A DNA stretch of 34,043 nt from a virus, in IMG/VR virus record IMGVR_UViG_3300021961_007557, positions 1 to 34,043 of that record. The stretch is one strand, 5' to 3'. Below, one piece after another: positions 1,523 to 32,582 of the stretch (position 1 is its first letter; the number at the start of each line of letters is the position of its first letter). Under the pieces are notes generated by a model that did no database searches, was not told where the DNA came from, and worked only from the letters and a program-made list of their open reading frames with translations. Position numbers and translations under genes: made by a program.

Positions 1523-1604
1523 GGGTAGGTGTCCGAGTGGTTAATGGAGGCGGACTGTAAATCCGCTGGCTCTGCCTACGGGGGTTCAAATCCCTCCCTG
1601 CCCA
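1523..1604 (+). tRNA. tRNA-Tyr (GTA)
   Basis: The acceptor GGGTAGG pairs with CCTGCCC (one G-T pair), the discriminator is A, and the anticodon loop CTGTAAA puts GTA at 1557-1559. The long variable arm is the class II form usual for bacterial tRNA-Tyr. The T arm is GGGGG-TTCAAAT-CCCTC. CCA is only partly encoded (CC). Confidence 0.93.
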
Positions 1605-1608
1605 CCTT

Positions 1609-1697
1609 GGAGGATTGGCTGAGTGGCTTAAAGCGGGAACCTGCTAAGTTCTTGATCTCTGTAAAGGGATCCGTTGGTTCAAATCCAACATCCTCCG
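1609..1697 (+). tRNA. tRNA-Ser (GCT)
   Basis: This class II tRNA has the acceptor pair GGAGGAT/ATCCTCC, discriminator G and a genome-encoded CCA at 1698-1700. The loop CTGCTAA gives anticodon GCT at 1643-1645. It lies 4 nt after tRNA-Tyr and abuts tRNA-Ile. Confidence 0.93.
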
Positions 1698-1700
1698 CCA

Positions 1701-1772
1701 GGGAGATTAGCTCAGTGGTAGAGCAATGTGCTGATAACGCAGAGGTCGGTGGTTCAAATCCACCATTTCCCA
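1701..1772 (+). tRNA. tRNA-Ile (GAT)
   Basis: The acceptor GGGAGAT pairs with ATTTCCC (one G-T), and the discriminator is A. The loop CTGATAA gives anticodon GAT at 1733-1735. The T arm GGTGG-TTCAAAT-CCACC is intact. It starts right after the CCA of tRNA-Ser, so the three tRNAs are one transcript. Confidence 0.9.
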
Positions 1773-1773
1773 C

Positions 1774-1806
1774 TTGACAATCAAATCTAAAAATGGTATG
1801 ATTGTC
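1774..1806 (+). promoter_or_regulatory. sigma70-type promoter with a dyad across the -35 and -10
   Basis: TTGACA (1774-1779), a 17-nt spacer and TATGAT (1797-1802) lie between tRNA-Ile and tRNA-Arg; the predicted start near 1809 is just before tRNA-Arg. GACAATC (1776-1782) and GATTGTC (1800-1806) form a perfect dyad with one arm in each promoter box. That could be a repressor site or a hairpin in read-through RNA. Confidence 0.6.
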
Positions 1807-1810
1807 TCAT

Positions 1811-1884
<74 letters not shown>

Positions 1885-2042
1885 TTACCACTTGCGCTGG
1901 AAAGATAAACCAGAATGCCGTGGTAAGATAGAGGGCAAGTCACTGTTACATCCTTGAGGTGTATCACACTTGCTCCATCATTCATAAATAAAACAGGATC
2001 CTCATTTGGGGATCTATTGTTTTTTTAGGTCTTGGGTATATA
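1885..2042 (+). other. intergenic stretch with a bulged hairpin, a late motif and a terminator-like hairpin
   Basis: No ORF is supported here. TTACCAC (1885-1891) can pair with GTGGTAA (1920-1926). A two-part hairpin follows: GCAAGT (1935-1940) with ACTTGC (1968-1973) encloses TACATC (1947-1952) with GGTGTA (1958-1963). A late motif ATAAATA lies at 1984-1990. GATCCTC (1997-2003) pairs with GGGGATC (2008-2014), including one T-G pair, and is followed by a T run to 2026 before the ATP-grasp gene. Confidence 0.45.
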
Positions 2043-2933
2043 ATGAAAACCTGGATGCTTGCGAATCGTCGTACTAAAGATACATATGAGCGAGATCGTT
2101 TTATAGAAGTCGCAGAAAATATGGAGATTGATTTTTCTGTAGTATATGCAGATGAAGTTGATCTTATAGTTTCACGGGATGATCGCAACTCTATTAGGTA
2201 TAGAGACAATATAGTACCTCTGCCTGATGTAGTGATTGCTAGAACGGGAAGTTCTACAGGACACTTTAATCTTTCTGTACTAAGACAGTTTGAAAGGTTG
2301 AACGTCCCTACTTTACCAAACTCTGATGCTATCATAGCAGCAAAGGATAAAATGTATGCCAATCAAATTTTGGCGCAGCATGGCATCCCTATCCCAAAAA
2401 CAATGCTTACTCGTTTTCCAAGTAATCCTGATCTAGTTGAAAAACAAGTGGGATTTCCTTGTGTAGTAAAAGTTGTAACTGGATCATATGGAGCAGGAGT
2501 TTATCTTTGTCATGATAGGAAACAGTTTGAGGATTTATCTGAGTTAATCTCTGCCTTGGATTTTAAAAACTCTATGATTGTTCAAGAGTATGTTGAATAT
2601 TCAAGTGGTAAAGACTTGCGTGTTATCGTGATTGGTGGTAAAGTAGTAGGTGCGATGAAAAGAGAGTCTACGGATGGTTCTTTCAAAGCAAATATTACTC
2701 GTGGTGGAGTTGGAACTGCCTATGATGTTGATGATAAGATGGAACTACTTGCCATACAAACAGCAAAAGTTCTTGATTTAGACATCGCTGGCGTAGACTT
2801 GCTTTTTCACCCAGATGGGTATAGAGTATGTGAAGCAAACTCATCACCAGGATTTCGTGGATTTGAAAATGCTTTAGGTATTAACATACCACAAAAAATA
2901 TTTGAATATGCAAGTATTCGTATTCCACAATAG
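2043..2933 (+). CDS. RimK-family ATP-grasp amino-acid ligase
   Basis: This 296-residue protein is full length for the RimK/alpha-L-glutamate ligase family, which adds amino acids to protein or small-molecule carboxylates with ATP. An N-terminal pre-ATP-grasp domain (about 1-95) contains IARTGSS. The ATP-grasp core follows: the phosphate-binding loop VKVVTGSYGAGV (about 140-152), IVQEYVE (about 180-186), and the metal-binding end with GVDLLF and EANSSPGF (about 245-270). The substrate is unknown; ribosomal protein S6 modification is only the founding example. The stop codon TAG lies inside the following tRNA-Asn. Confidence 0.82.
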   Translation: MKTWMLANRRTKDTYERDRFIEVAENMEIDFSVVYADEVDLIVSRDDRNSIRYRDNIVPLPDVVIARTGSSTGHFNLSVLRQFERLNVPTLPNSDAIIAAKDKMYANQILAQHGIPIPKTMLTRFPSNPDLVEKQVGFPCVVKVVTGSYGAGVYLCHDRKQFEDLSELISALDFKNSMIVQEYVEYSSGKDLRVIVIGGKVVGAMKRESTDGSFKANITRGGVGTAYDVDDKMELLAIQTAKVLDLDIAGVDLLFHPDGYRVCEANSSPGFRGFENALGINIPQKIFEYASIRIPQ

Positions 2934-2995
2934 CTCAGCGGTAGAGCATTCGACTGTTAATCGACTGGTCCCTGGTTCGAATCCAGGTTGTGGAG
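2924..2995 (+). tRNA. tRNA-Asn (GTT)
   Basis: The acceptor TCCACAA pairs with TTGTGGA, and the discriminator is G. The anticodon GTT is at 2956-2958. The T arm CCTGG-TTCGAAT-CCAGG is intact. The first ten bases overlap the 3' end of the ATP-grasp gene, and T8-A9-G10 is its stop codon. Confidence 0.93.
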
Positions 2996-3021
2996 TTGGA
3001 TGGACTTAGGTTCTTCCATAC

Positions 3022-3046
3022 GAGTCGGGATCATCATATCCGACTC
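3022..3046 (+). other. intergenic hairpin between tRNAs
   Basis: GAGTCGG at 3022-3028 pairs perfectly with CCGACTC at 3040-3046 around an 11-nt loop. It lies in the 57-nt spacer between tRNA-Asn and the degenerate tRNA. There is no T run, so it is more likely a processing structure or tRNA remnant than a terminator. Confidence 0.45.
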
Positions 3047-3052
3047 ACCAAT

Positions 3053-3124
3053 CCTCTGGTAGTCTATTGGTAAGGACAGGCAGACAATGCACTTGGAAAC
3101 TGGGTTCGATTCCCAGACAGAGGT
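3053..3124 (+). pseudogene. degenerate tRNA-like sequence
   Basis: The T arm CTGGG-TTCGATT-CCCAG is perfect, the D arm (GTC...GAC) is recognisable, and the acceptor CCTCTGG pairs with ACAGAGG at six of seven positions. The 17 nt that should form the anticodon arm (3080-3096) make no stem, and no T33 is in register. It is probably a decayed tRNA or a tRNA mimic; the anticodon cannot be assigned. Confidence 0.55.
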
Positions 3125-3130
3125 AAACAA

Positions 3131-3202
3131 GGGCGATTAACTCAGCGGTAGAGTGGCCTCCTTACAAGTGGTAAGTCACTGGTTCGATTCCAGTATCGCC
3201 CA
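3131..3202 (+). tRNA. tRNA-Val (TAC)
   Basis: The acceptor GGGCGAT pairs with ATCGCCC, the discriminator is A, and the loop CTTACAA gives anticodon TAC at 3163-3165. The anticodon stem has one T-T mismatch. The T arm ACTGG-TTCGATT-CCAGT is intact. Confidence 0.88.
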
Positions 3203-3204
3203 TC

Positions 3205-3211
3205 ATAAATA
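3205..3211 (+). promoter_or_regulatory. T4-type late promoter
   Basis: ATAAATA lies 3 nt after the tRNA-Val discriminator base and 14 nt before the Dps-like start codon. A start near 3217 would leave an unusually short leader. Confidence 0.6.
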
Positions 3212-3224
3212 CTTAGAAAAAATA

Positions 3225-3662
3225 ATGGACGAGTTATATCAACTTCTTCATAGAACACAGACAAGTCTTTTCTGTTTAATGCAGAAGACTTGGGTTTATC
3301 ATTGGAATGTCGTAGGATCTGACTTTCATCAACTACATGCTCTTTTCGGAGAGCAGTATGTTGCGATGATTGCTGAGATTGATAGACTTACAGAAAACAT
3401 GCGATACCTTCGCATGAAAGCGATTGGACCTATTAGTAGAGTTGTACAAACTTCTATTATTCCAGAAGCTTCTGATAATCTGACTGATAAAACCATGATT
3501 AGTCAACTGTTAGCAGACAATAAAAAATTTATTGAAATGCTTACCAATGTTTCAGAAAAATCTGAAAGTTTAAATCAGTATGCAACGACTAATATTATTC
3601 AAGATCTTATGGAGTCTCATGGTAAATTCGTTTGGATGTTAAGATCTTTTTTAAAGGAATGA
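3225..3662 (+). CDS. Dps-like ferritin (DNA-starvation protection family)
   Basis: This 145-residue protein is helical throughout. Residues about 20-40 carry the Dps signature: WVYHWNVVG, then LHALFGEQY, with the following helix containing EIDRLTENMRYL. In Dps, H and D/E residues from these helices form the inter-subunit ferroxidase site that oxidises Fe2+ with peroxide. The ATG at 3225 was chosen because the longer frame (to 3153) runs through tRNA-Val. The late motif directly upstream predicts late expression. It may protect replicated phage DNA or make use of host iron. Confidence 0.8.
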   Translation: MDELYQLLHRTQTSLFCLMQKTWVYHWNVVGSDFHQLHALFGEQYVAMIAEIDRLTENMRYLRMKAIGPISRVVQTSIIPEASDNLTDKTMISQLLADNKKFIEMLTNVSEKSESLNQYATTNIIQDLMESHGKFVWMLRSFLKE

Positions 3663-3665
3663 GCA

Positions 3666-3917
3666 ATGATTTCTATAAGATGCAAAGAATGTAATAGAGA
3701 GTTAATCAGTCATCCATCAAAGACCACTTCTTGTGGTTGTCCTAATATGGCTACATTGAAGGGGGATACGATTACTGCTATTGACTTATCCAAAGTAATC
3801 ATGTTAAACTCTGTAAAAGAAGACAAAAGATCACCAATTTTGTCTGATTCAGATCTTGCATATCAAGAATCTAGAAGAACAAGAAAAGTTCGTAAGTTAG
3901 ATTTTGAAGTCCGATAA
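3666..3917 (+). CDS. small zinc-ribbon-like protein
   Basis: This 83-residue protein has an N-terminal CKEC (about 6-9) and a second CGC (about 23-25), suggesting a small metal-binding knuckle. A basic C-terminal tail follows (RRTRKVRK). It starts 3 nt after the Dps-like stop and is probably in the same transcript. I recognise no named family. Confidence 0.6.
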   Translation: MISIRCKECNRELISHPSKTTSCGCPNMATLKGDTITAIDLSKVIMLNSVKEDKRSPILSDSDLAYQESRRTRKVRKLDFEVR

Positions 3918-3918
3918 T

Positions 3919-4152
3919 ATGAAGAAAAAAAATATTTGGCGCTGGTGGGCAAAAGCACTAGGAGAAAAAGCATCTAAATGCGATAAAGAATCCGACACTA
4001 TTGCAATCATCAGAACCATTATTTTTTTGAGTTATCTAACTACAAACTTTTTTATCATTGCTGGTGTTATTAGACACTGGAATGATAACAACGATAAGGT
4101 GAGATGGCAGAGTCTGGCTTATTGCACCTGTCTTGAAAACAGGCATGGGTAA
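3919..4152 (+). CDS. single-pass membrane protein whose C-terminus is read from a tRNA gene
   Basis: The ATG at 3919 gives 77 residues; a TTG at 3904 would add five. A tryptophan- and lysine-rich head (NIWRWWAKALGEK) is followed by a hydrophobic segment (about 28-50) and a short polar tail. From about residue 60 the frame runs through the first 55 nt of tRNA-Ser(TGA) before reaching a stop. The head resembles small conserved cyanophage proteins, but the tail is unlikely to be selected as protein. Confidence 0.6.
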   Translation: MKKKNIWRWWAKALGEKASKCDKESDTIAIIRTIIFLSYLTTNFFIIAGVIRHWNDNNDKVRWQSLAYCTCLENRHG

Positions 4153-4184
4153 CACCATCGGGGGTTCAAATCCCTCTCTCACCG
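4098..4184 (+). tRNA. tRNA-Ser (TGA)
   Basis: This class II tRNA has acceptor GGTGAGA/TCTCACC and discriminator G. The anticodon stem CCTGT...ACAGG surrounds loop CTTGAAA, giving TGA at 4134-4136. The variable arm is long. The 5' half overlaps the preceding membrane-protein frame. Confidence 0.93.
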
Positions 4185-4297
4185 TTAATATTTTCTTAAT
4201 CACTTTCTGAGTTTCAACACATAGTAGTCATTTATACTTGCCAAAATGTGTAAATTTGGTAGCATTGAAATACATAGATTATATCGATTTTTCTTAC

Positions 4298-4525
4298 ATG
4301 AATGCATCGGTCATTAGTACCTACTTAACTCTTGTCATCATTCTTTTAATGATTGCGTATGCTGGTGTGGAGGGTACACTCCGTGTTTTCACGTATCTTG
4401 ATGTAACTATTCGTTTGCAGTTTATTAAGTTGCAAATGAAGTGGATGGGTTGGAAACTTAAAAGGCAACTTATTAAGGATACAACCGATTTCAAAAACTT
4501 CCTTAAGGAGTATAAAGATGATTGA
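4298..4525 (+). CDS. small membrane protein
   Basis: The ATG at 4298 gives 75 residues; an upstream frame open to 4238 lacks a better start. One strong hydrophobic helix (about 5-30) is followed by a basic amphipathic cytoplasmic tail (QMKWMGWKLKRQLIK). It overlaps the next gene by 8 nt. I recognise it only as the type of small membrane protein common in cyanomyoviruses. Confidence 0.65.
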   Translation: MNASVISTYLTLVIILLMIAYAGVEGTLRVFTYLDVTIRLQFIKLQMKWMGWKLKRQLIKDTTDFKNFLKEYKDD

Positions 4526-4763
4526 CAAAGAGCTGTCCGACCTCAAACTTGAGAGGAAGGAATGCCTTAAGTGTGGTGCTATCTGGATTAATAATGAGCA
4601 TTACTGGTCAGGAACAGGAAAAAAAGGAAATGAACTTGATCTTGCAGGACTAGTTTGTAACAATCATGGTGATGAAACCTGCATAAACCCATGCAAAGGA
4701 CAAGATGGTGGGGTAACATGGGAAAAGAGATTGACTGAACTTGGTGAGGATTTCCCAGAATGA
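4518..4763 (+). CDS. small cysteine-rich protein
   Basis: This 81-residue soluble protein has four or five cysteines, including CLKC near 17-20 and CINPC near 55-59, which could bind zinc. It is translationally coupled on both sides: it overlaps the previous gene by 8 nt, and its TGA overlaps the next ATG (ATGA). Confidence 0.6.
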   Translation: MIDKELSDLKLERKECLKCGAIWINNEHYWSGTGKKGNELDLAGLVCNNHGDETCINPCKGQDGGVTWEKRLTELGEDFPE

Positions 4764-4966
4764 TGCAACCACACGACGATGATTATGCAACTCATAGCGA
4801 AGTGCAGGAGATGATTGATGCTGCAATACGACGCCATAATCGTAATGCTTCGATTATCAGTATGTGTGTTGGTTGGGTTGTTCTTGCACTTTTTGCTGAG
4901 GGTCTGCTTAGACTCATTGGAGTAATACCGCCACTACTACCATGGCTCAACATTACCCTGAAATAA
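4760..4966 (+). CDS. small membrane protein with C-terminal helix
   Basis: This protein has 68 residues. An acidic and histidine-containing N-terminus (about 1-28) precedes a transmembrane segment (about 31-53). The start lies in an ATGATG overlapping the previous stop, and its end overlaps the next small gene by 25 nt. Confidence 0.6.
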   Translation: MMQPHDDDYATHSEVQEMIDAAIRRHNRNASIISMCVGWVVLALFAEGLLRLIGVIPPLLPWLNITLK

Positions 4967-5121
4967 TCGGTATCGTTTTCCTGTTAGTGTTTGCCGCTAC
5001 GATGTTCTATCAAGGCACATGTATTCTTAAAGGTCAACGTGGATATTCTTTGAGAGACTATCTTAAACAAGATAGTATAAACATGCGTAAAAGAGTAGAA
5101 GAACTTTTAAAAGACAAATGA
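4942..5121 (+). CDS. 59-residue membrane protein
   Basis: The ATG at 4942 opens a frame with a hydrophobic helix (about 8-22), then GTCILKGQRGYSLRDYL and a basic coiled tail ending in LLKDK. The start lies within the previous gene and the TGA overlaps the next ATG. Coupled spacing on both sides is the main support. Confidence 0.6.
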   Translation: MAQHYPEIIGIVFLLVFAATMFYQGTCILKGQRGYSLRDYLKQDSINMRKRVEELLKDK

Positions 5122-5234
5122 TATCTTTAACAGAAGAGGATCTCCAAGAACTAAGAGAAAGAGTCTTTCAAGCTAAAATGACAGAACTCTTTGAAGAACC
5201 ATCTACTTATGAAGATGAAGATGACTGTGACTGA
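5118..5234 (+). CDS. 38-residue acidic peptide
   Basis: This is a short charged helix-rich peptide starting MISLTEEDLQELRERV and ending in an acidic tail (EDEDDCD). The ATG overlaps the previous TGA (ATGA) and its end overlaps the next start by 14 nt. Support is positional only. Confidence 0.5.
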   Translation: MISLTEEDLQELRERVFQAKMTELFEEPSTYEDEDDCD

Positions 5235-5343
5235 TTGGTTAATTTTTATTCAGTTTGTGTCTCACATATTGTATATGTTCATAGCGTTTATGTGTGGACT
5301 AATAATAGGATACATTGTTGGATTTAGAAACGGAGGAATGTAA
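5221..5343 (+). CDS. 40-residue single-pass membrane peptide
   Basis: Nearly the whole peptide is hydrophobic (about 5-32), followed by GFRNGGM. It overlaps both neighbours. The embedded GGAGG at 5333-5337 would serve as ribosome-binding site for the next ORF. Confidence 0.5.
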   Translation: MTVTDWLIFIQFVSHILYMFIAFMCGLIIGYIVGFRNGGM

Positions 5344-5429
5344 TGAGAACTTTTCTTTCATCTATTTTACTTTTTTCTGCGATTGTGCTTTTTATTCAAT
5401 GGGGCATGAACAATGCATACCCGCATTAA
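5343..5429 (+). CDS. 28-residue membrane peptide
   Basis: The start overlaps the previous stop (TAATG) and is preceded by GGAGG with 5-nt spacing. The peptide is one hydrophobic helix (about 3-19) with a short polar end. It overlaps the next gene by 17 nt. Confidence 0.45.
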   Translation: MRTFLSSILLFSAIVLFIQWGMNNAYPH

Positions 5430-5607
5430 ACAGAGATATCATTTTGCAATGACTTGTTTTGTAAGAACTTATGGTAGAAGTGTTTTGAATGATGGGTATA
5501 TAAAACAGTTTTGTAAAGAATGGGCAGAGTGGGATGTAAATGCCCCTTTAGATAACACCGTAGACCAATATTTTCATCACGAATATAAGACATGGAGAGG
5601 AATGTAA
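5413..5607 (+). CDS. small soluble protein, unknown
   Basis: This 64-residue protein is rich in aromatic and charged residues, without membrane segments. Its end abuts the next ATG, with GGAGAGGA near the 3' end acting as the ribosome-binding site of the following gene. It shares a YGR...KQFCKEW-like layout with the next ORF (Y...EFCDHWV), so the two may be distant duplicates. Confidence 0.5.
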   Translation: MHTRIKQRYHFAMTCFVRTYGRSVLNDGYIKQFCKEWAEWDVNAPLDNTVDQYFHHEYKTWRGM

Positions 5608-5847
5608 ATGTTTAGAATGAACGATCACACAGACGATTTAAGAGATACTGATTGGAGATACAGTGAAGAAAGGATGCAACTTAGAGCAATGGTTTTTCAT
5701 GCATTGTCTCATCATCTTTATAATCACTGCAGACAAGTTTATGAGTTTTGTGATCACTGGGTAAGTCAAGGAAATAAGGGTATAGATAATATAGAATCAT
5801 TTTTTGAAGAGTACCTTGAACAACTTGACACTAAATGTAAAAAGTAA
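5608..5847 (+). CDS. small soluble protein, unknown
   Basis: This 79-residue protein is charged and histidine-rich (HALSHHLYNHC) and predicted helical. It starts directly after the previous stop with a good GGAGAGGA upstream. A strong early promoter overlaps its 3' end. No family is recognised. Confidence 0.55.
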   Translation: MFRMNDHTDDLRDTDWRYSEERMQLRAMVFHALSHHLYNHCRQVYEFCDHWVSQGNKGIDNIESFFEEYLEQLDTKCKK

Positions 5848-5853
5848 TATACT
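5825..5853 (+). promoter_or_regulatory. sigma70-type early promoter for the HNH gene
   Basis: TTGACA (5825-5830) and TATACT (5848-5853) are separated by 17 nt. The predicted start is near 5860, upstream of the late promoter at 5871, so early RNA from here includes the complete hairpin in front of the HNH start. Confidence 0.65.
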
Positions 5854-5870
5854 ATTTCTGATCTCTAAGT

Positions 5871-5905
5871 TATAAATATTTGGGAGTGCTTTTTTTCTTC
5901 CCAAA
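5871..5905 (+). promoter_or_regulatory. consensus late promoter plus start-codon-proximal hairpin
   Basis: An exact T4 late motif TATAAATA is at 5871-5878. TTTGGGA (5879-5885) pairs with TCCCAAA (5899-5905), which directly abuts the ATG at 5906. The late start expected near 5884 removes most of the 5' arm, whereas early RNA from 5860 keeps it. Confidence 0.65.
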
Positions 5906-6271
5906 ATGATAACTAGAACTTGTAAAGAATGTGGTGTAGTCCATTCCTTGACAGATTTTCCTCTTGCTGGTAATATTAAAGGAGTCAACTATTATAGGCA
6001 CAAATGCATTCAGTGTTACTCTAAGCAAAAAACTAAAGAAGCACAAAAACGCATGAGCAAATTTAGAGAGTATAAAAAAACTCTTAAATGCAATCGTTGT
6101 GGATATAACGATTATAGAGCACTTGAGTTTCATCACCCCATTGATGATAAAGAAGGTCAACCATGTATTATTGCTAGACAAAGATCTTGGAAAAATGTAT
6201 TGGAAGAACTAAATAAGTGCGAAGTTGTTTGTTCTAACTGTCATAGAATAGAACATTATAACGGGCATTAG
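5906..6271 (+). CDS. HNH endonuclease (free-standing, homing-type)
   Basis: This protein has 121 residues. An N-terminal zinc-binding module (CKECG, then HKCIQC near 33-38) precedes the nuclease part: CNRCGY (about 60-65), FHHPID (about 73-78) and CSNCHR (about 110-115). Together these give the ββα-metal HNH signature with structural cysteines. Such free-standing enzymes in T4-like phages cut homologous sites and spread themselves. Its TAG stop is formed by T8-A9-G10 of tRNA-Pro, so the gene is fused tightly to the tRNA. It has both early and late promoters with a hairpin switch. Confidence 0.82.
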   Translation: MITRTCKECGVVHSLTDFPLAGNIKGVNYYRHKCIQCYSKQKTKEAQKRMSKFREYKKTLKCNRCGYNDYRALEFHHPIDDKEGQPCIIARQRSWKNVLEELNKCEVVCSNCHRIEHYNGH

Positions 6272-6335
6272 CGCAGTTTGGTAGCGCGTTCCGTTTGGGG
6301 CGGAAAGGTCAAAGGTTCAAATCCTTTATGCCCGA
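6262..6335 (+). tRNA. tRNA-Pro (TGG)
   Basis: The acceptor CGGGCAT pairs with ATGCCCG, and the discriminator is A. The stem TTCCG/CGGAA surrounds the anticodon loop with TGG at 6296-6298. The T arm AAAGG-TTCAAAT-CCTTT is intact. Its first ten bases overlap the HNH gene. Confidence 0.93.
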
Positions 6336-6336
6336 C

Positions 6337-6355
6337 TCATAAATGTCATTTATGA
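6337..6355 (+). promoter_or_regulatory. perfect palindrome, candidate operator of the antitoxin gene
   Basis: TCATAAATGtCATTTATGA is a perfect 9+1+9 dyad ending 3 nt before the antitoxin ATG. Phd/YefM-family proteins repress their own genes by binding such palindromes. The left arm also resembles a late motif (ATAAATG). The operator role is inference. Confidence 0.55.
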
Positions 6356-6358
6356 ACC

Positions 6359-6568
6359 ATGATTAAAGACTTACTTAGCACAGATCTACTAGAGAAGTTT
6401 ACAGTGGAAGAATTTCAAGCAGACTTTGATAATCTGATGAATAGAGTTGAAGGAGGAGAATCTTTCGTGATAACAAGTGAGCATGGAAACGCAGTCATGG
6501 TTCCATATGACGAAGATATAAAAGAACTGATACGAATACACACCGAGTTAAACAACGAAGCACCCTGA
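6359..6568 (+). CDS. Phd/YefM-like antitoxin-type protein
   Basis: This 69-residue protein has the layout of the Phd/YefM fold. The key stretch is FQADFDNLMNRVEGGESF (about 19-36), then VITSEHGNAVMVPYDE, matching the family pattern of a helix followed by G-E-x-hydrophobic-T and the VMVP strand. No toxin partner (Doc, YoeB) lies beside it: the next features are tRNAs. It may neutralise a host toxin or act as a small repressor. A perfect palindrome lies directly upstream. Confidence 0.65.
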   Translation: MIKDLLSTDLLEKFTVEEFQADFDNLMNRVEGGESFVITSEHGNAVMVPYDEDIKELIRIHTELNNEAP

Positions 6569-6584
6569 TTTTTGGGGTTTACTT

Positions 6585-6675
6585 GGGGGCATAGTTCAAC
6601 GGTAGAACAGCGGTCTTATACTCCGTATTAGCGCCAGATTAGCGCGAGGTCTTGGTTCGAATCCAAGTGTCCCTA
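6585..6675 (+). tRNA. tRNA with loop anticodon TAT (Ile, AUA reading) and enlarged variable arm
   Basis: The acceptor GGGGGCA pairs with TGTCCCT (two G-T pairs). The D arm (GTTC...GAAC) and T arm CTTGG-TTCGAAT-CCAAG are good. The loop CTTATAC gives TAT at 6617-6619 with a T-T mismatch closing the stem. The variable region is 24 nt and contains a tandem near-repeat (ATTAGCGCCAG, ATTAGCGCGAG). A class II size with an Ile-type anticodon is unusual, so the identity is uncertain. Confidence 0.7.
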
Positions 6676-6680
6676 TTACT

Positions 6681-6704
6681 ATTCGCTATTTGCGAATAGC
6701 GAAT
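6681..6704 (+). other. perfect 10-bp hairpin between two tRNAs
   Basis: ATTCGCTATT (6681-6690) pairs with AATAGCGAAT (6695-6704) around TGCG. It lies immediately before tRNA-Met with no T run. It may direct processing of the dicistronic tRNA precursor. Confidence 0.6.
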
Positions 6705-6777
6705 GCTGGTTTAGCTATCTGGTGAAAGCACCCGACTCATAATCGGATATAGGTGGGTTCGATCCCCACAATCAGCA
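6705..6777 (+). tRNA. tRNA with CAT anticodon (Met or Ile2)
   Basis: The acceptor GCTGGTT pairs with AATCAGC, and the discriminator is A. The loop CTCATAA gives CAT at 6738-6740. The T arm GTGGG-TTCGATC-CCCAC is intact. The sequence alone does not separate elongator Met from lysidine-modified Ile2; the tRNA just upstream already has an AUA-type loop. Confidence 0.9.
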
Positions 6778-6801
6778 TGGACAGAATCAAAACTGTCCTA
6801 C

Positions 6802-7331: not shown

Positions 7332-7565
7332 ATGGCAACTTCACCTAAGGTAGCATCTGCTAAAGCATCCGCAGCAGAATCTGCAGAAAAGCAACCATAT
7401 ATGTCTGAATATGATAAGAGTGTTGAACTTCGTCTTCAAGCACTTGAATCTCAAACACATACTCCATGTAATGGAGGTGGTAGTGTAGATGTAGATAGAC
7501 TTGCTGCTCTTGAGGCAAAAGTTGAAGATCTAATGGATAGATTGGCAAGAAAAATGTCATTCTGA
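7332..7565 (+). CDS. small alanine-rich protein with C-terminal coiled coil
   Basis: This protein has 77 residues. An Ala/Ser/Lys-rich N-terminus (about 1-22) is followed by YMSEYDKSVELRLQALE (about 23-40), a CNGGGS linker, and a leucine-heptad coiled coil (LAALEAKVEDLMDRL, about 58-72). The late motif upstream and coiled coil suggest a minor structural or accessory protein; that is inference. Confidence 0.6.
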   Translation: MATSPKVASAKASAAESAEKQPYMSEYDKSVELRLQALESQTHTPCNGGGSVDVDRLAALEAKVEDLMDRLARKMSF

Positions 7566-7568
7566 TTT

Positions 7569-7822
7569 CCTGTTTTAAAATAAAACAGGTGGTGGAGTCA
7601 CCCCAAAATGCCCGTCTCGGACTGACGTTAAACGTGCCCTGGTCGGGAACCCCCCTTCACCCATAGAGTTTCCAATCTCTCTTCAAAGGATTGGTGGTGC
7701 GGATGGGAATCTCTCCCGCCTGGTTTCCATTTTCCAGTCAAAGAAATGGTGGTGCGTCATGGATCTCCTGTGTCCAGTTTCTTGCCTCTGGTCAAAGGGC
7801 AAGTGGTGGATCTAAACTACCC
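7569..7822 (+). repeat. array of hairpins with covarying stems followed by TGGTG
   Basis: This gene-free 305-nt gap (7566-7870) holds repeated hairpin units. Unit A pairs CCAATC (7672-7677) with GATTGG (7689-7694); unit B pairs CCATTT (7727-7732) with AAATGG (7744-7749); unit C pairs CTTGCC (7781-7786) with GGCAAG (7798-7803). Each has an 11-nt loop ending TCAAAG, and each is followed directly by TGGTGCGG, TGGTGCGT or TGGTGGAT. The period is 54-55 nt. An outlying unit pairs CCTGTTTTA (7569-7577) with TAAAACAGG (7581-7589), then TGGTGGAG. A second GC-rich hairpin follows each. Function is unknown; selection is for structure. Confidence 0.7.
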
Positions 7823-7870
7823 CTTTCGTAAGTTGTAAGTGTTATATATACTATAAAACTTCTTCTTACC

Positions 7871-8344
7871 ATGTCTAAATCTTTGTATCTTTCTCGTTAT
7901 TCTGTTGAGCAACTCCGTTTTTTGCTGTCTCAATCATTTACATTTTGGGAGTTCTGCCAGAAGGTTGGTTACACTAACAAATCTTCTGCTACTTATAGAT
8001 CAGCAAAAAACTATTTACAAAAGCAAGGTATCAAATTTGAGGAATACCCGCACGTATTCCGTCGTGTTGGCACCACAACCCGTAAATCTGATACTGATGT
8101 ATTTGTAAATGGTAAATATCATGATACAAGAAGTTTAAAAAAACGTCTTATTGATAGTGGAGTCGAATACAAATGTTCCTCTTGTGATATTAATAGTTGG
8201 ATGGGAAACTCTCTAACACTTCAAGTAGATCACATAAATGGAAATAATAAAGATAATAGAAAAGAAAACTTAAGATTTTTGTGTCCGAACTGTCATACTT
8301 TGACAGAGACATGGGGGTATAAAAATAAAACCCCTTCTGTGTGA
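7871..8344 (+). CDS. HNH endonuclease (homing-type) inside a structured RNA region
   Basis: This protein has 157 residues. The N-terminal part (about 1-60) is basic and helical and probably binds DNA. The nuclease part contains CSSC (about 97-100), VDHINGNNKDNRKENL (about 116-131) and CPNCHT (about 135-140), a complete HNH signature with zinc-binding cysteines. It is flanked on both sides by hairpins of the same architecture (7569-7822 and 8353-8386), so it may have inserted into that array. A TA-rich stretch (TATATACT at 7845-7852) upstream could be a -10, but the -35 is poor. Confidence 0.85.
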   Translation: MSKSLYLSRYSVEQLRFLLSQSFTFWEFCQKVGYTNKSSATYRSAKNYLQKQGIKFEEYPHVFRRVGTTTRKSDTDVFVNGKYHDTRSLKKRLIDSGVEYKCSSCDINSWMGNSLTLQVDHINGNNKDNRKENLRFLCPNCHTLTETWGYKNKTPSV

Positions 8345-8352
8345 GTTGGTTT

Positions 8353-8386
8353 CTTAGTTCCATCTGAATAAAACTAAGTGGCGGGC
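8353..8386 (+). repeat. further hairpin unit downstream of the HNH gene
   Basis: CTTAGTT (8353-8359) pairs with AACTAAG (8372-8378) and is followed by TGGCGGGC, the same order of elements as the array upstream. The preceding TTT also matches. The loop (12 nt) lacks TCAAAG. A small GGG...CCC hairpin comes next. Confidence 0.5.
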
Positions 8387-8399
8387 ATGTCCCTAATCA

Positions 8400-8426
8400 G
8401 GGTGGTTGCATAAACCATCCTTTTTT
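8400..8426 (+). terminator. rho-independent terminator
   Basis: GGGTGGTT (8400-8407) pairs with AACCATCC (8413-8420) around GCATA, followed by six Ts. It ends the HNH/hairpin transcript before the sugar operon. Confidence 0.8.
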
Positions 8427-8434
8427 GTTATACT
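8406..8434 (+). promoter_or_regulatory. sigma70-type promoter of the sugar operon, overlapping the terminator
   Basis: TTGCAT (8406-8411) and TATACT (8429-8434) are 17 nt apart, and the start is expected near 8441. The -35 lies in the stem end and loop of the terminator, so termination and initiation share the same bases. Confidence 0.6.
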
Positions 8435-8454: not shown

Positions 8455-9462
8455 ATGAAAGTTGCACTGATTACTGGTATTACAGGTCAAGACGGTTCAT
8501 ACCTTGCAGAACTTCTCTTAGAGAAAGGATATGAAGTTCATGGTATTGTACGACGGTCTTCACTTATTAATACCGATAGGATTGATCATATTTACAAACA
8601 AATTAAACTTCATTATGGGGATTTGACTGACTCTACCAATGTGATTGGTGTGATTCAAAAGGTTCAACCTGATGAGATCTATAATCTTGGTGCTCAAAGT
8701 CATGTAAAGGTGTCTTTTGAGTTACCAGAATATACTGGTATGGTAGATGGTCTTGGAACTCTTCGTATTCTTGAAGCAGTTCGTCTTCTAGGAATAGAAA
8801 AGAAAACAAGAATCTATCAGGCATCTACTTCTGAGATGTTTGGTAAAGTTCAAGAAATACCTCAAAAAGAAACAACTCCATTTTATCCACGCTCACCTTA
8901 TGGTTGTGCAAAAGTATATGGATATTGGATTACTAAAAACTATCGTGAGTCGTACAATATGTACGCTGGTTCTGGTATTTTGTTCAATCACGAATCTCCA
9001 AGAAGAGGTGAGACTTTTGTTACTCGTAAGATTACGATTGCACTTAAAAATATCTCAGAGGGTAAATGGGACACACTTTACTTGGGTAACTTAAATGCTC
9101 TTAGAGATTGGGGACATGCTAAAGATTTTGTTGAAGCAATGTGGTTGATGCTACAACAGGAAGATGCGGATGATTATGTTGTTTCTACAAATGAACAGCA
9201 TTCTGTTCGTGAGTTTGTGGAAAAGTGTGCTCCATACTTTAATATGAATATTCAATGGGAAGGTGATGGACTTAATGAGATTGGTGTAGATGTTAAGACT
9301 GGTAAGACTATTGTAAGAGTGAGTGATAAGTATTTTCGTCCTGCTGAAGTGGATACTCTTCTTGGAGATTCTACAAAAGCAAGAACAAAACTTGGATGGT
9401 ATCCTAAGACATCTTTTGATCAACTCGTAGAGGATATGTGTAAAAATGAAAAAGGATTCTAG
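8455..9462 (+). CDS. gmd: GDP-mannose 4,6-dehydratase
   Basis: This 335-residue protein is full length for the family. It converts GDP-D-mannose to GDP-4-keto-6-deoxymannose, the first step to GDP-L-fucose. The NADP-binding loop [10 protein letters not shown] (about 7-16), [10 protein letters not shown] in the middle and the catalytic YGCAK motif of short-chain dehydrogenases are visible. The ATG at 8455 was preferred to a TTG at 8443. It overlaps the next gene, GDP-fucose synthase, by 17 nt and heads the operon. Confidence 0.96.
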
Positions 9463-10372
9463 AATTTTGATTGCTGGTGCCAACGGAATGGTTGGGTCAG
9501 CAATCGTGAGAAATCTTAAGAGTAAAGGATACACTAACATTATCAAAGGTACTCGTGATGATGTTGACTTTACAAATCAAGATGAAACTGAAAGATATTT
9601 TTGTTCAGAAGAACCTGAATATGTTTTTGTTGCTGCTGCCAAGGTCGGTGGTATTATGGCAAACAATAACTATAAGGCAGAGTTTCTGACTGAGAACTTA
9701 CAGATTCAAACTAATCTTATTCAACAGTCTTATAACTTTGGCGTCAAAAAACTTCTCTTTCTCGGTTCTTCCTGCATTTATCCTAAGTTTGCAACTCAAC
9801 CAATCACAGAAGACCAACTGATGACTGGTCCGTTAGAACCCACAAATGATGCCTATGCGATTGCTAAGATCACAGGTGTAAAGATGTGCCAAGCATATAA
9901 AGAGCAGTATGGATTTAATGCAATCTCTTTGATGCCTACAAATCTTTATGGTCCTAATGATAACTTTGATTTAAAAACATCTCATGTTCTTCCTGCATTG
10001 ATTGCAAAGTTTCATGATGCGTTAAAGAATGGTAATGTTCCATTGCTGTGGGGAGATGGTTCTGCGATGCGTGAGTTTTTACACGTCGATGATCTTGCAG
10101 AAGCATGTTATGTTTGTATGCAAAAGTATGATGAAGCAGGACATATCAATGTTGGCACAGGTGAGGATGTTAAGATTTGGGAACTTGCAAATATTATTGC
10201 TGGTGTTGTTGGTTATGATCGAGATATTCAATGGGACTTTACTAAACCAAATGGTACACCACGTAAAGTATTAAATGTTGATAAGATTAAATCTCTTGGA
10301 TGGGAACCTAAAATATCTCTTGAGGATGGAATCAAATCAACTTACGAATACTTTCTATCACATTACGGTTAA
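9446..10372 (+). CDS. fcl: GDP-L-fucose synthase
   Basis: This 308-residue protein is a bifunctional epimerase/reductase that finishes GDP-L-fucose. The Rossmann loop GANGMVGSA (about 10-18), [10 protein letters not shown] (about 64-73), SSCIYPK (about 107-113) and the catalytic YAIAK (about 135-139) are all present. It is coupled to gmd by overlap and followed by a terminator with an internal promoter. Two GT11 fucosyltransferases downstream would use the product. Confidence 0.96.
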
Positions 10373-10378
10373 TACTAC

Positions 10379-10402
10379 AGGGGTTGCAAAACCCCTTTTT
10401 TT
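10379..10402 (+). terminator. rho-independent terminator with GCAA loop
   Basis: AGGGGTT (10379-10385) pairs with AACCCCT (10390-10396) around the tetraloop GCAA, then a T run. It splits gmd-fcl from the rest of the island, although a promoter restarts transcription at once. Confidence 0.8.
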
Positions 10403-10417
10403 GTGCGATAATAAATA
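10384..10417 (+). promoter_or_regulatory. composite sigma70/late promoter
   Basis: TTGCAA (10384-10389), 17 nt and GATAAT (10407-10412) form a sigma70-type promoter. The last AT of the -10 begins the late motif ATAAATA (10411-10417). The -35 lies in the terminator loop. The same 34-nt geometry occurs before the porin, psbA and psbD. Confidence 0.6.
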
Positions 10418-31376: not shown

Positions 31377-31480
31377 ACACCCATCAACCGAGACCTATGG
31401 GGTGTATAAAAACGTCTCTCATACCCACAGTGGAGGGTGCTGTGGGGAATAATCGTAACGGTTCGTCCCCCCGAACTTTT
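31377..31480 (+). other. structured psbA leader with three hairpins
   Basis: ACACCCAT (31377-31384) pairs with ATGGGGTGT (31397-31405, one bulge). CCCACAG (31424-31430) pairs with CTGTGGG (31440-31446). GTTCG (31461-31465) pairs with CGAAC (31472-31476), followed by TTTT. The leader is gene-free. These could control stability or translation of psbA RNA; the last could terminate some transcripts. Confidence 0.5.
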
Positions 31481-31499
31481 ATCTAACTCTCTTAAACAA

Positions 31500-32582
31500 A
31501 TGACTGCTACACTTTCACGTCAAAAATCACAATCGAATACTTGGGAACAGTTCTGCCAGTGGGTAACTTCAACCGATAACCGTCTTTATGTCGGTTGGTT
31601 CGGAACTCTGATGATTCCCTGCTTGCTTGCTGCTACCATTTGCTTCATTGTCGCATTCATCGCTGCTCCCCCTGTGGACATTGATGGAATCCGTGAACCC
31701 GTTGCTGGTTCTCTGATGTACGGAAACAACATCATCTCTGGTGCTGTTATCCCTTCGTCCAATGCTATTGGACTGCACTTTTACCCAATCTGGGAAGCTG
31801 CTTCCCTAGATGAGTGGCTCTACAACGGTGGACCTTTCCAACTGGTTGTATTCCACTTCCTGATCGGTATCTATGCTTACATGGGTCGTGAGTGGGAACT
31901 TTCCTACCGCCTGGGTATGCGTCCTTGGATCTGTGTTGCCTACTCGGCACCTGTTGCTGCTGCGAGTGCAGTGTTCCTGGTCTATCCTTTCGGTCAAGGT
32001 TCTTTCTCTGATGCAATGCCTCTGGGTATCTCTGGTACGTTCAACTACATGCTTGTGTTCCAGGCAGAGCACAACATCCTGATGCACCCCTTCCACATGC
32101 TTGGAGTTGCTGGTGTGTTCGGTGGTTCTCTGTTCAGTGCAATGCACGGTTCTCTGGTTACTTCCTCGCTGGTTCGTGAAACCACTGAGTCTGAATCACA
32201 GAACTATGGTTACAAGTTCGGTCAAGAAGAAGAGACTTATAACATTGTTGCTGCTCACGGTTATTTCGGACGCCTGATCTTCCAATATGCTTCCTTCAAC
32301 AACTCTCGTTCGCTACACTTCTTCCTTGCTGCTTGGCCTGTTGTCGGTATCTGGTTTACTGCCCTGGGCGTATCAACAATGGCGTTCAACCTCAACGGGT
32401 TCAACTTCAACCAGTCCATCGTTGATTCACAAGGTCGTGTCCTGAATACTTGGGCAGATGTACTTAACCGTGCTGGACTGGGGATGGAAGTTATGCATGA
32501 ACGTAACGCCCACAATTTTCCTTTGGATCTCGCTGCTGCTGAAGCAACTCCTGTTGCTCTGACTGCACCTACCATTGGTTGA
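31500..32582 (+). CDS. psbA: photosystem II D1 protein
   Basis: This 360-residue protein is full length. D1 is the reaction-centre subunit binding the Mn cluster and QB in the thylakoid. The ATG at 31500 begins MTATLSRQ; the frame upstream to 31437 is not conserved D1. The gene is uninterrupted (no intron). The residue after YMGR is Glu (E131 here, position 130 in the usual numbering), the high-light D1:2 type. The C-terminus keeps the processing region [12 protein letters not shown]-ending codons exceed those of neighbours. Confidence 0.98.

Follow-up and report, generated by a model that had tools for sequence, protein, structure and literature searches.

The hairpin array that begins at position 7569 of the window (the whole 34,043-nucleotide stretch analysed, IMG/VR record IMGVR_UViG_3300021961_007557) is, practically beyond doubt, wcaG RNA in an expanded form. 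Judging from the stop codon that lies just before the array and from a predicted terminator that also serves as promoter for the next gene, the array is most probably the 3' untranslated region of the transcript from an upstream early operon. More tentatively, wcaG RNA may be the known core of a larger element, built of two to six modules with several pseudoknots, that closes early cyanophage transcripts at their 3' end and is coupled to a composite terminator-promoter. Such an element would not be a 5'-leader riboswitch but a phage-specific RNA device that, where exchangeable gene blocks meet, sets both the ends and the stability of transcripts.

The search of the window with cmscan against Rfam returned a wcaG RNA (RF01761) match at 7664-7763 with 89.7 bits (E = 7.2e-16, gathering score 42) that spans all 98 model positions (1-98). 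In 2010 this RNA was put forward as a candidate riboswitch, found in marine metagenomes and T4-like cyanophages and lying near exopolysaccharide or high-light genes (PMC2864571). The core of the array was therefore already known, and the proposal of the earlier note that it is an undescribed phage RNA was rejected. In the later literature on wcaG RNA we found presence reports only and no test of riboswitch function. What is new is the modular extension, the measured covariation of the pseudoknots and the placement at a putative 3' end beside a terminator-promoter. The window copy shares with the described family the full-model match, the occurrence in marine T4-like cyanophages and the exopolysaccharide-type genes nearby; it adds a third full pseudoknot to the two covered by the model, a 5' hairpin module and a degenerate fourth unit, and it is interrupted by an ORF. 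These extra modules show that the RF01761 model covers less than the full element.

Related stretches were fetched by two sequence patterns anchored on the canonical module B or C, which under-sample diverged arrays, so that all counts below are among the matches listed and are not frequencies in nature. Related arrays were found in at least 125 phage records, all of which bear the name Synechococcus phage or cyanophage; S-SM2, S-SKS1 and S-SRM01 are among the array-bearing isolates. The two hairpins, the conserved linker hairpin and the GUGGYG tails of wcaG RNA are conserved in 20 arrays, and their occurrence in cyanophages and marine metagenomes is that of the published family. A host origin was rejected: 49 pattern matches in cellular genomes, about the chance number estimated for 17 fixed bases, were in no case followed by a UGGYG tail, and by one pattern the module together with its tail had no match in 84,980 cellular species genomes. 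A tRNA-like element was rejected as well, since ARAGORN placed tRNAs elsewhere in the window and none at the array. Among known elements, the STAXI motif likewise consists of a pseudoknot repeated two, usually three times (Weinberg 2010, PMC2864571), but it occurs in other taxa and beside other genes, and STAXI (RF01728 according to the table in PMC2864571) had no match in the window at its gathering score. EAR/epsC and JUMPstart are likewise found at exopolysaccharide operons but differ from the array in sequence and position, and neither had an Rfam match in the window.

The modules of the window follow each other in the order A, E-like element, pseudoknots 1, 2 and 3, an HNH ORF and a last unit, all on the plus strand, as are the terminator, promoter and genes described below. 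Module A (7569-7600) begins 3 nt past the stop codon of the ORF at 7332-7565 and consists of a 9-bp hairpin CCTGTTTTA/TAAAACAGG followed by TGGTGGAGTCA; the hairpin (7569-7589) and the TGGTGG after it had been noticed before. It was found in many related loci as a hairpin followed by GUGGUGGAGUCA and GACCC. Its stem covaries: 39 class-1 copies among the matches listed gave 30 cells changed on both sides, compared with a mean of 9.4 and a maximum of 18 in shuffles. No curated Rfam family matches module A, which reaches 15.6 bits against wcaG (7517-7603) where the gathering score is 42. The E-like element (7608-7649; putative pairing GCCCG..CGTC/GACG..GCCCTGGTCGGGA, with a possible pseudoknot CCCG/CGGG) resembles sequences that precede module B in loci L001, L017 and L112.

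Pseudoknots 1 (7665-7694) and 2 (7720-7749) lie within the Rfam match, the latter at its end, and are also supported by covariation. In pseudoknot 1 the flank AGAG (7665-7668) faces the loop CTCT (7679-7682) and the stem is 7672-7678/7688-7694; in pseudoknot 2 the flank is CTGG (7720-7723), the loop CCAG (7734-7737) and the stem 7727-7733/7743-7749. Between them lies the module B tail (7695-7719), which comprises TGGTGCGGA, the hairpin TGGGA-ATCTC-TCCCG of the Rfam consensus and a final C, and in which TGGTGCGGATGGG and CCGCC are invariant in 20 arrays. The second linker (7750-7773), read from the sequence and mostly outside the Rfam model, has TGGTGCGT and the hairpin CATGG-ATCTC-CTGTG, with the same 5-bp stem and 5-nt loop as the first; in both linkers the loop is AUCUC. 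Pseudoknot 3 (7774-7803; flank CCAG at 7774-7777, loop CTGG at 7788-7791, stem 7781-7787/7797-7803) is additional to the Rfam model and is supported by sequence and covariation. It corresponds to the D module, TGGTGGATC, which precedes module C in at least 11 distinct arrays of the forms EBDC and BDC (for example, L053 and L055). Its tail (7804-7835) reads TGGTGGATCTAAACTACCCCTTTCGTAAGTTG, comparable to TGGTGGATCCAAATGACCCCTTCCGTGTGGTTG in L053 and L173.

The array extends past 7811, where the earlier note had ended it, to a fourth unit (8346-8389), a degenerate module C with the flank TTGG, the stem CTTAGT/ACTAAG, the loop CCA forming a 3-bp pseudoknot, and then TGGCGGGCATG. This unit is the real part of a second, weak RF01761 match (8305-8392, 28.4 bits, below gathering). 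It is separated from pseudoknot 3 by an HNH endonuclease ORF (7871-8344; PHROG 10822, E = 1.3e-37). Loci L017 and L112, both close relatives, have neither pseudoknot 3 nor the HNH ORF but are otherwise alike on both sides: the last unit (identical in L017), the terminator and the start of gmd are nearly base-for-base common to the three loci. The HNH ORF is flanked on both sides by a similar sequence, ACCCCTT..GT..G. In S-SRM01 a homing endonuclease is located directly before gmd, and at least eight other loci have a small gene between modules A and B.

As described in the earlier note, the three central units, which start 55 and 54 nt apart, have the stems CCAATC/GATTGG, CCATTT/AAATGG and CTTGCC/GGCAAG, loops of 11 nt ending in TCAAAG, and TGGTG after every 3' arm; each stem is lengthened to 7 bp by a U.G pair. 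Each "hairpin" is an H-type pseudoknot, in which four bases of the loop are paired with the quartet just upstream of UUU, and the pattern NNNG-UUU-(7-nt arm)-CNNN-UCAAA-(7-nt arm)-UGGUG is repeated three times at 7665-7803, with 5-bp hairpins between the units. For the covariation analysis, units were selected by stem pairing and loop length, and flank:loop pairing played no part in the selection. In 55 distinct units among the matches listed, stem cells were paired in 100%, pseudoknot cells in 98.2% and all cells in 99.3% of cases, compared with 78.7% in shuffles and 34-54% in slid controls. Both-side changes were seen in nine of the eleven pairs (3/4 pseudoknot, 6/7 stem), and 140 cells were changed on both sides, compared with 38 in shuffles, although cell counts of this kind are inflated by sequence relatedness. 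The flank:loop helix is therefore itself a target of selection.

Folding energy computed for this sequence alone does not reach significance (z = -1.33), since the folding program cannot model pseudoknots; it is the comparison of related sequences that carries the case for a selected structure. In these phage loci the stems do covary, with compensatory changes, as would be expected from the selected RNA structure first suspected from three units. The companion idea of a constant loop presented to a partner was correct in part: four of the loop bases sit in the covarying pseudoknot, whereas UCAAA(G), the UUU linker and the UGGYG tail alone are constant. Four stretches are invariant across units: UUU, the UC that opens the loop, an AA inside it and the UGG.G behind the stem. 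A coding repeat was rejected, in agreement with the initial observation that no ORF explains the array: none of the six frames stays open through 7569-7811, and among relatives the spacing of the modules takes all three phases, leaving no conserved reading frame. In S-SRM01 (locus L002, 3775-3981) a hypothetical protein, PQC13_gp295, has been annotated on top of the wcaG array; a real gene is unlikely there.

The last unit is followed by a predicted intrinsic terminator (8399-8427; AGGGTGGTTGCATAAACCATCCT and a T tract) and by a predicted promoter (8406-8434; TTGCAT-17-TATACT) whose -35 box lies within the terminator hairpin. Terminators and promoters were predicted from sequence in all arrays. 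In 149 distinct arrays ending in module C among the matches listed, 112 had a predicted intrinsic terminator within about 60 nt past the array (shuffles, 1/744), and in 89 the terminator hairpin contained a predicted sigma70-type -35 box (shuffles, 0/744). Most arrays thus lie upstream of a terminator bearing the predicted promoter of the next gene. Conversely, 82 of the 95 composite terminator-promoters predicted in 1.26 Mb of array-bearing loci among the matches listed directly follow module C. On the upstream side, also among the matches listed, arrays almost always come after the stop codon of a small ORF read in their own direction: the longest ORF shares the strand of the array in 158 cases and has the opposite strand in 9, and the median distance from its stop codon to the first module anchor is 13 nt. 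In arrays starting with module A, the stop codon typically lies 4-12 nt before the module anchor, often inside hairpin A. Three downstream contexts were seen among the matches listed: terminator, promoter and gene (about 108), a tRNA gene (18), and an ATG within 45 nt (about 13, 10 of them without a terminator). The array stays after the upstream stop codon whichever of the three follows.

Composite promoter-terminator elements of T4-like phages, known as PeSL, were reportedly described by Arbiol in 2010 and Comeau in 2014. As cited in PMC4503421, PeSL elements combine a hairpin terminator with an early-type promoter and are located beside exchangeable genes; the predicted intrinsic terminator of the window overlaps a predicted early sigma70-type promoter in the same way (8399-8434), but an upstream pseudoknot array is outside the PeSL definition as it appears from titles and PMC4503421. 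Another composite terminator-promoter is predicted in the window at 10379-10412 (AGGGGTTGCAAAACCCCTTTTTTT, TTGCAA-17-GATAAT), directly 3' of the fucose-synthase-like gene and without an array.

The array lies between small phage genes and sugar-synthesis genes, namely GDP-mannose 4,6-dehydratase (gmd, 8455-9462; PF16363, E = 1.7e-148) and an NAD-dependent epimerase (the wcaG gene, 9446-10372; PF01370, E = 1.1e-63). The latter is probably GDP-L-fucose synthase, being syntenic with genes annotated as GDP-L-fucose synthase or nucleotide-sugar epimerase. Across arrays the downstream genes, as judged by reading sequence clusters and not by family search, mostly encode NAD-dependent nucleotide-sugar enzymes, followed by cytidylyltransferase-like, tail-fibre-like, glycosyltransferase-like and cupin isomerase-like proteins. 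At least 18 arrays have a tRNA gene in place of the sugar gene (including L003, L012, L036, L038 and L037), usually with a GGGG-TTGACC-CCCC-like hairpin before the tRNA gene. Elsewhere in the window there are eleven tRNA genes (1523-6778), interspersed with small ORFs and a ribosomal protein S6 modification-like gene (2043-2933), and a PhotoRC-II RNA (RF01717, 31365-31460; 79.9 bits, gathering 39), a known cyanophage psbA-associated element that overlaps the start of the photosystem II D1 ORF (31437-32582, PHROG 182).

The position of the terminator and promoter makes the label of 5'-leader riboswitch doubtful: the predicted promoter of the next gene is downstream of the array, which speaks against a simple 5' leader. 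In contrast to the 5' UTR label, the placement in the window points to a 3' end, and wcaG RNA looks more like the 3' end of the upstream transcript than the 5' leader of sugar genes. Taken as a whole, with identity, placement and protection together, the 3' end is the best explanation, although our confidence in it stops somewhat short of even. In this explanation the compact pseudoknots would act in cis on the upstream transcript as a folded 3'-end block, which would slow host 3'-to-5' exonucleases; a stable end of the RNA would then remain at the terminator or, where a tRNA gene follows, at the site of tRNA processing. Shielding of the upstream transcript from 3'-to-5' decay is the more speculative part of this explanation, and we regard it as possible. 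A folded 3'-end or intercistronic block fits all three downstream contexts. Against it, GUUU, UCAAA, UGGYG and GCGGAU..CCGCC are more constant than a plain block needs, and this constancy of unpaired sequences suggests a ligand, a protein or a specific tertiary fold. The ATG within 45 nt in about 13 arrays fits a leader, and the enrichment of nucleotide-sugar genes downstream is not explained by an element acting upstream.

Ligand sensing is a strong rival, given the marked constancy of the unpaired bases and the frequency of sugar genes downstream. As proposed in 2010 (PMC2864571), the ligand of the tandem pseudoknots would be a metabolite, perhaps a nucleotide sugar, whose binding would control either read-through of the terminator into the sugar genes or translation of the next gene. 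The free variation of the helices around constant unpaired sequence, the terminator a short distance past module C and the sharper response that tandem copies would give all agree with such a riboswitch or attenuator, which we nevertheless consider rather unlikely. Neither the array nor its tail shows complementarity to or covariation with either terminator arm beyond swapped controls, so there is no standard antiterminator, and a simple terminator/antiterminator switch was rejected; alternative pairing of the terminator arms with the aptamer was likewise not found, while other platforms are possible. Furthermore, the predicted promoter within the terminator means that the next gene can be made without the array, tRNA genes follow at least 18 arrays, and P-SSM2 has the syntenic gmd with no wcaG RNA.

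The remaining proposals are less probable still. The array and its terminator might be released as a stable sRNA, 3'-UTR-derived or stand-alone, whose constant segments would hold, like a sponge, a protein or RNA of the host or the phage; two or more repeated units share these segments, the array has its own terminator, and large phage records have one array each. We judge this improbable, as in about 13 arrays an ORF begins within 45 nt, and 10 of these lack a terminator. Structured nascent RNA directly before a terminator and an exopolysaccharide-type operon also recalls EAR and put RNA, and processive antitermination would have the nascent array make RNA polymerase read through the terminator directly downstream. 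EAR and put elements act on distant terminators within one operon, whereas here a promoter follows at once and contexts without a terminator exist, which makes this mechanism very unlikely. Finally, the array and composite terminator-promoter precede many different genes, and small genes or the HNH ORF are inserted within arrays, as might be expected of a PeSL-like recombination cassette that shuffles genes at the DNA level, with the RNA fold secondary. The strong compensatory change, including that in the pseudoknot, shows selection on the folded RNA, and we give this last idea hardly any weight.

The placement data provide a testable alternative to the published proposal, namely that wcaG RNA belongs to the upstream transcript. 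If this is true, choosing candidate ligands by the downstream gene is misguided from the outset, and the arrays would be a simple system in which to study the protection or ending of early phage RNAs in hosts that are the main photosynthetic bacteria of the ocean.
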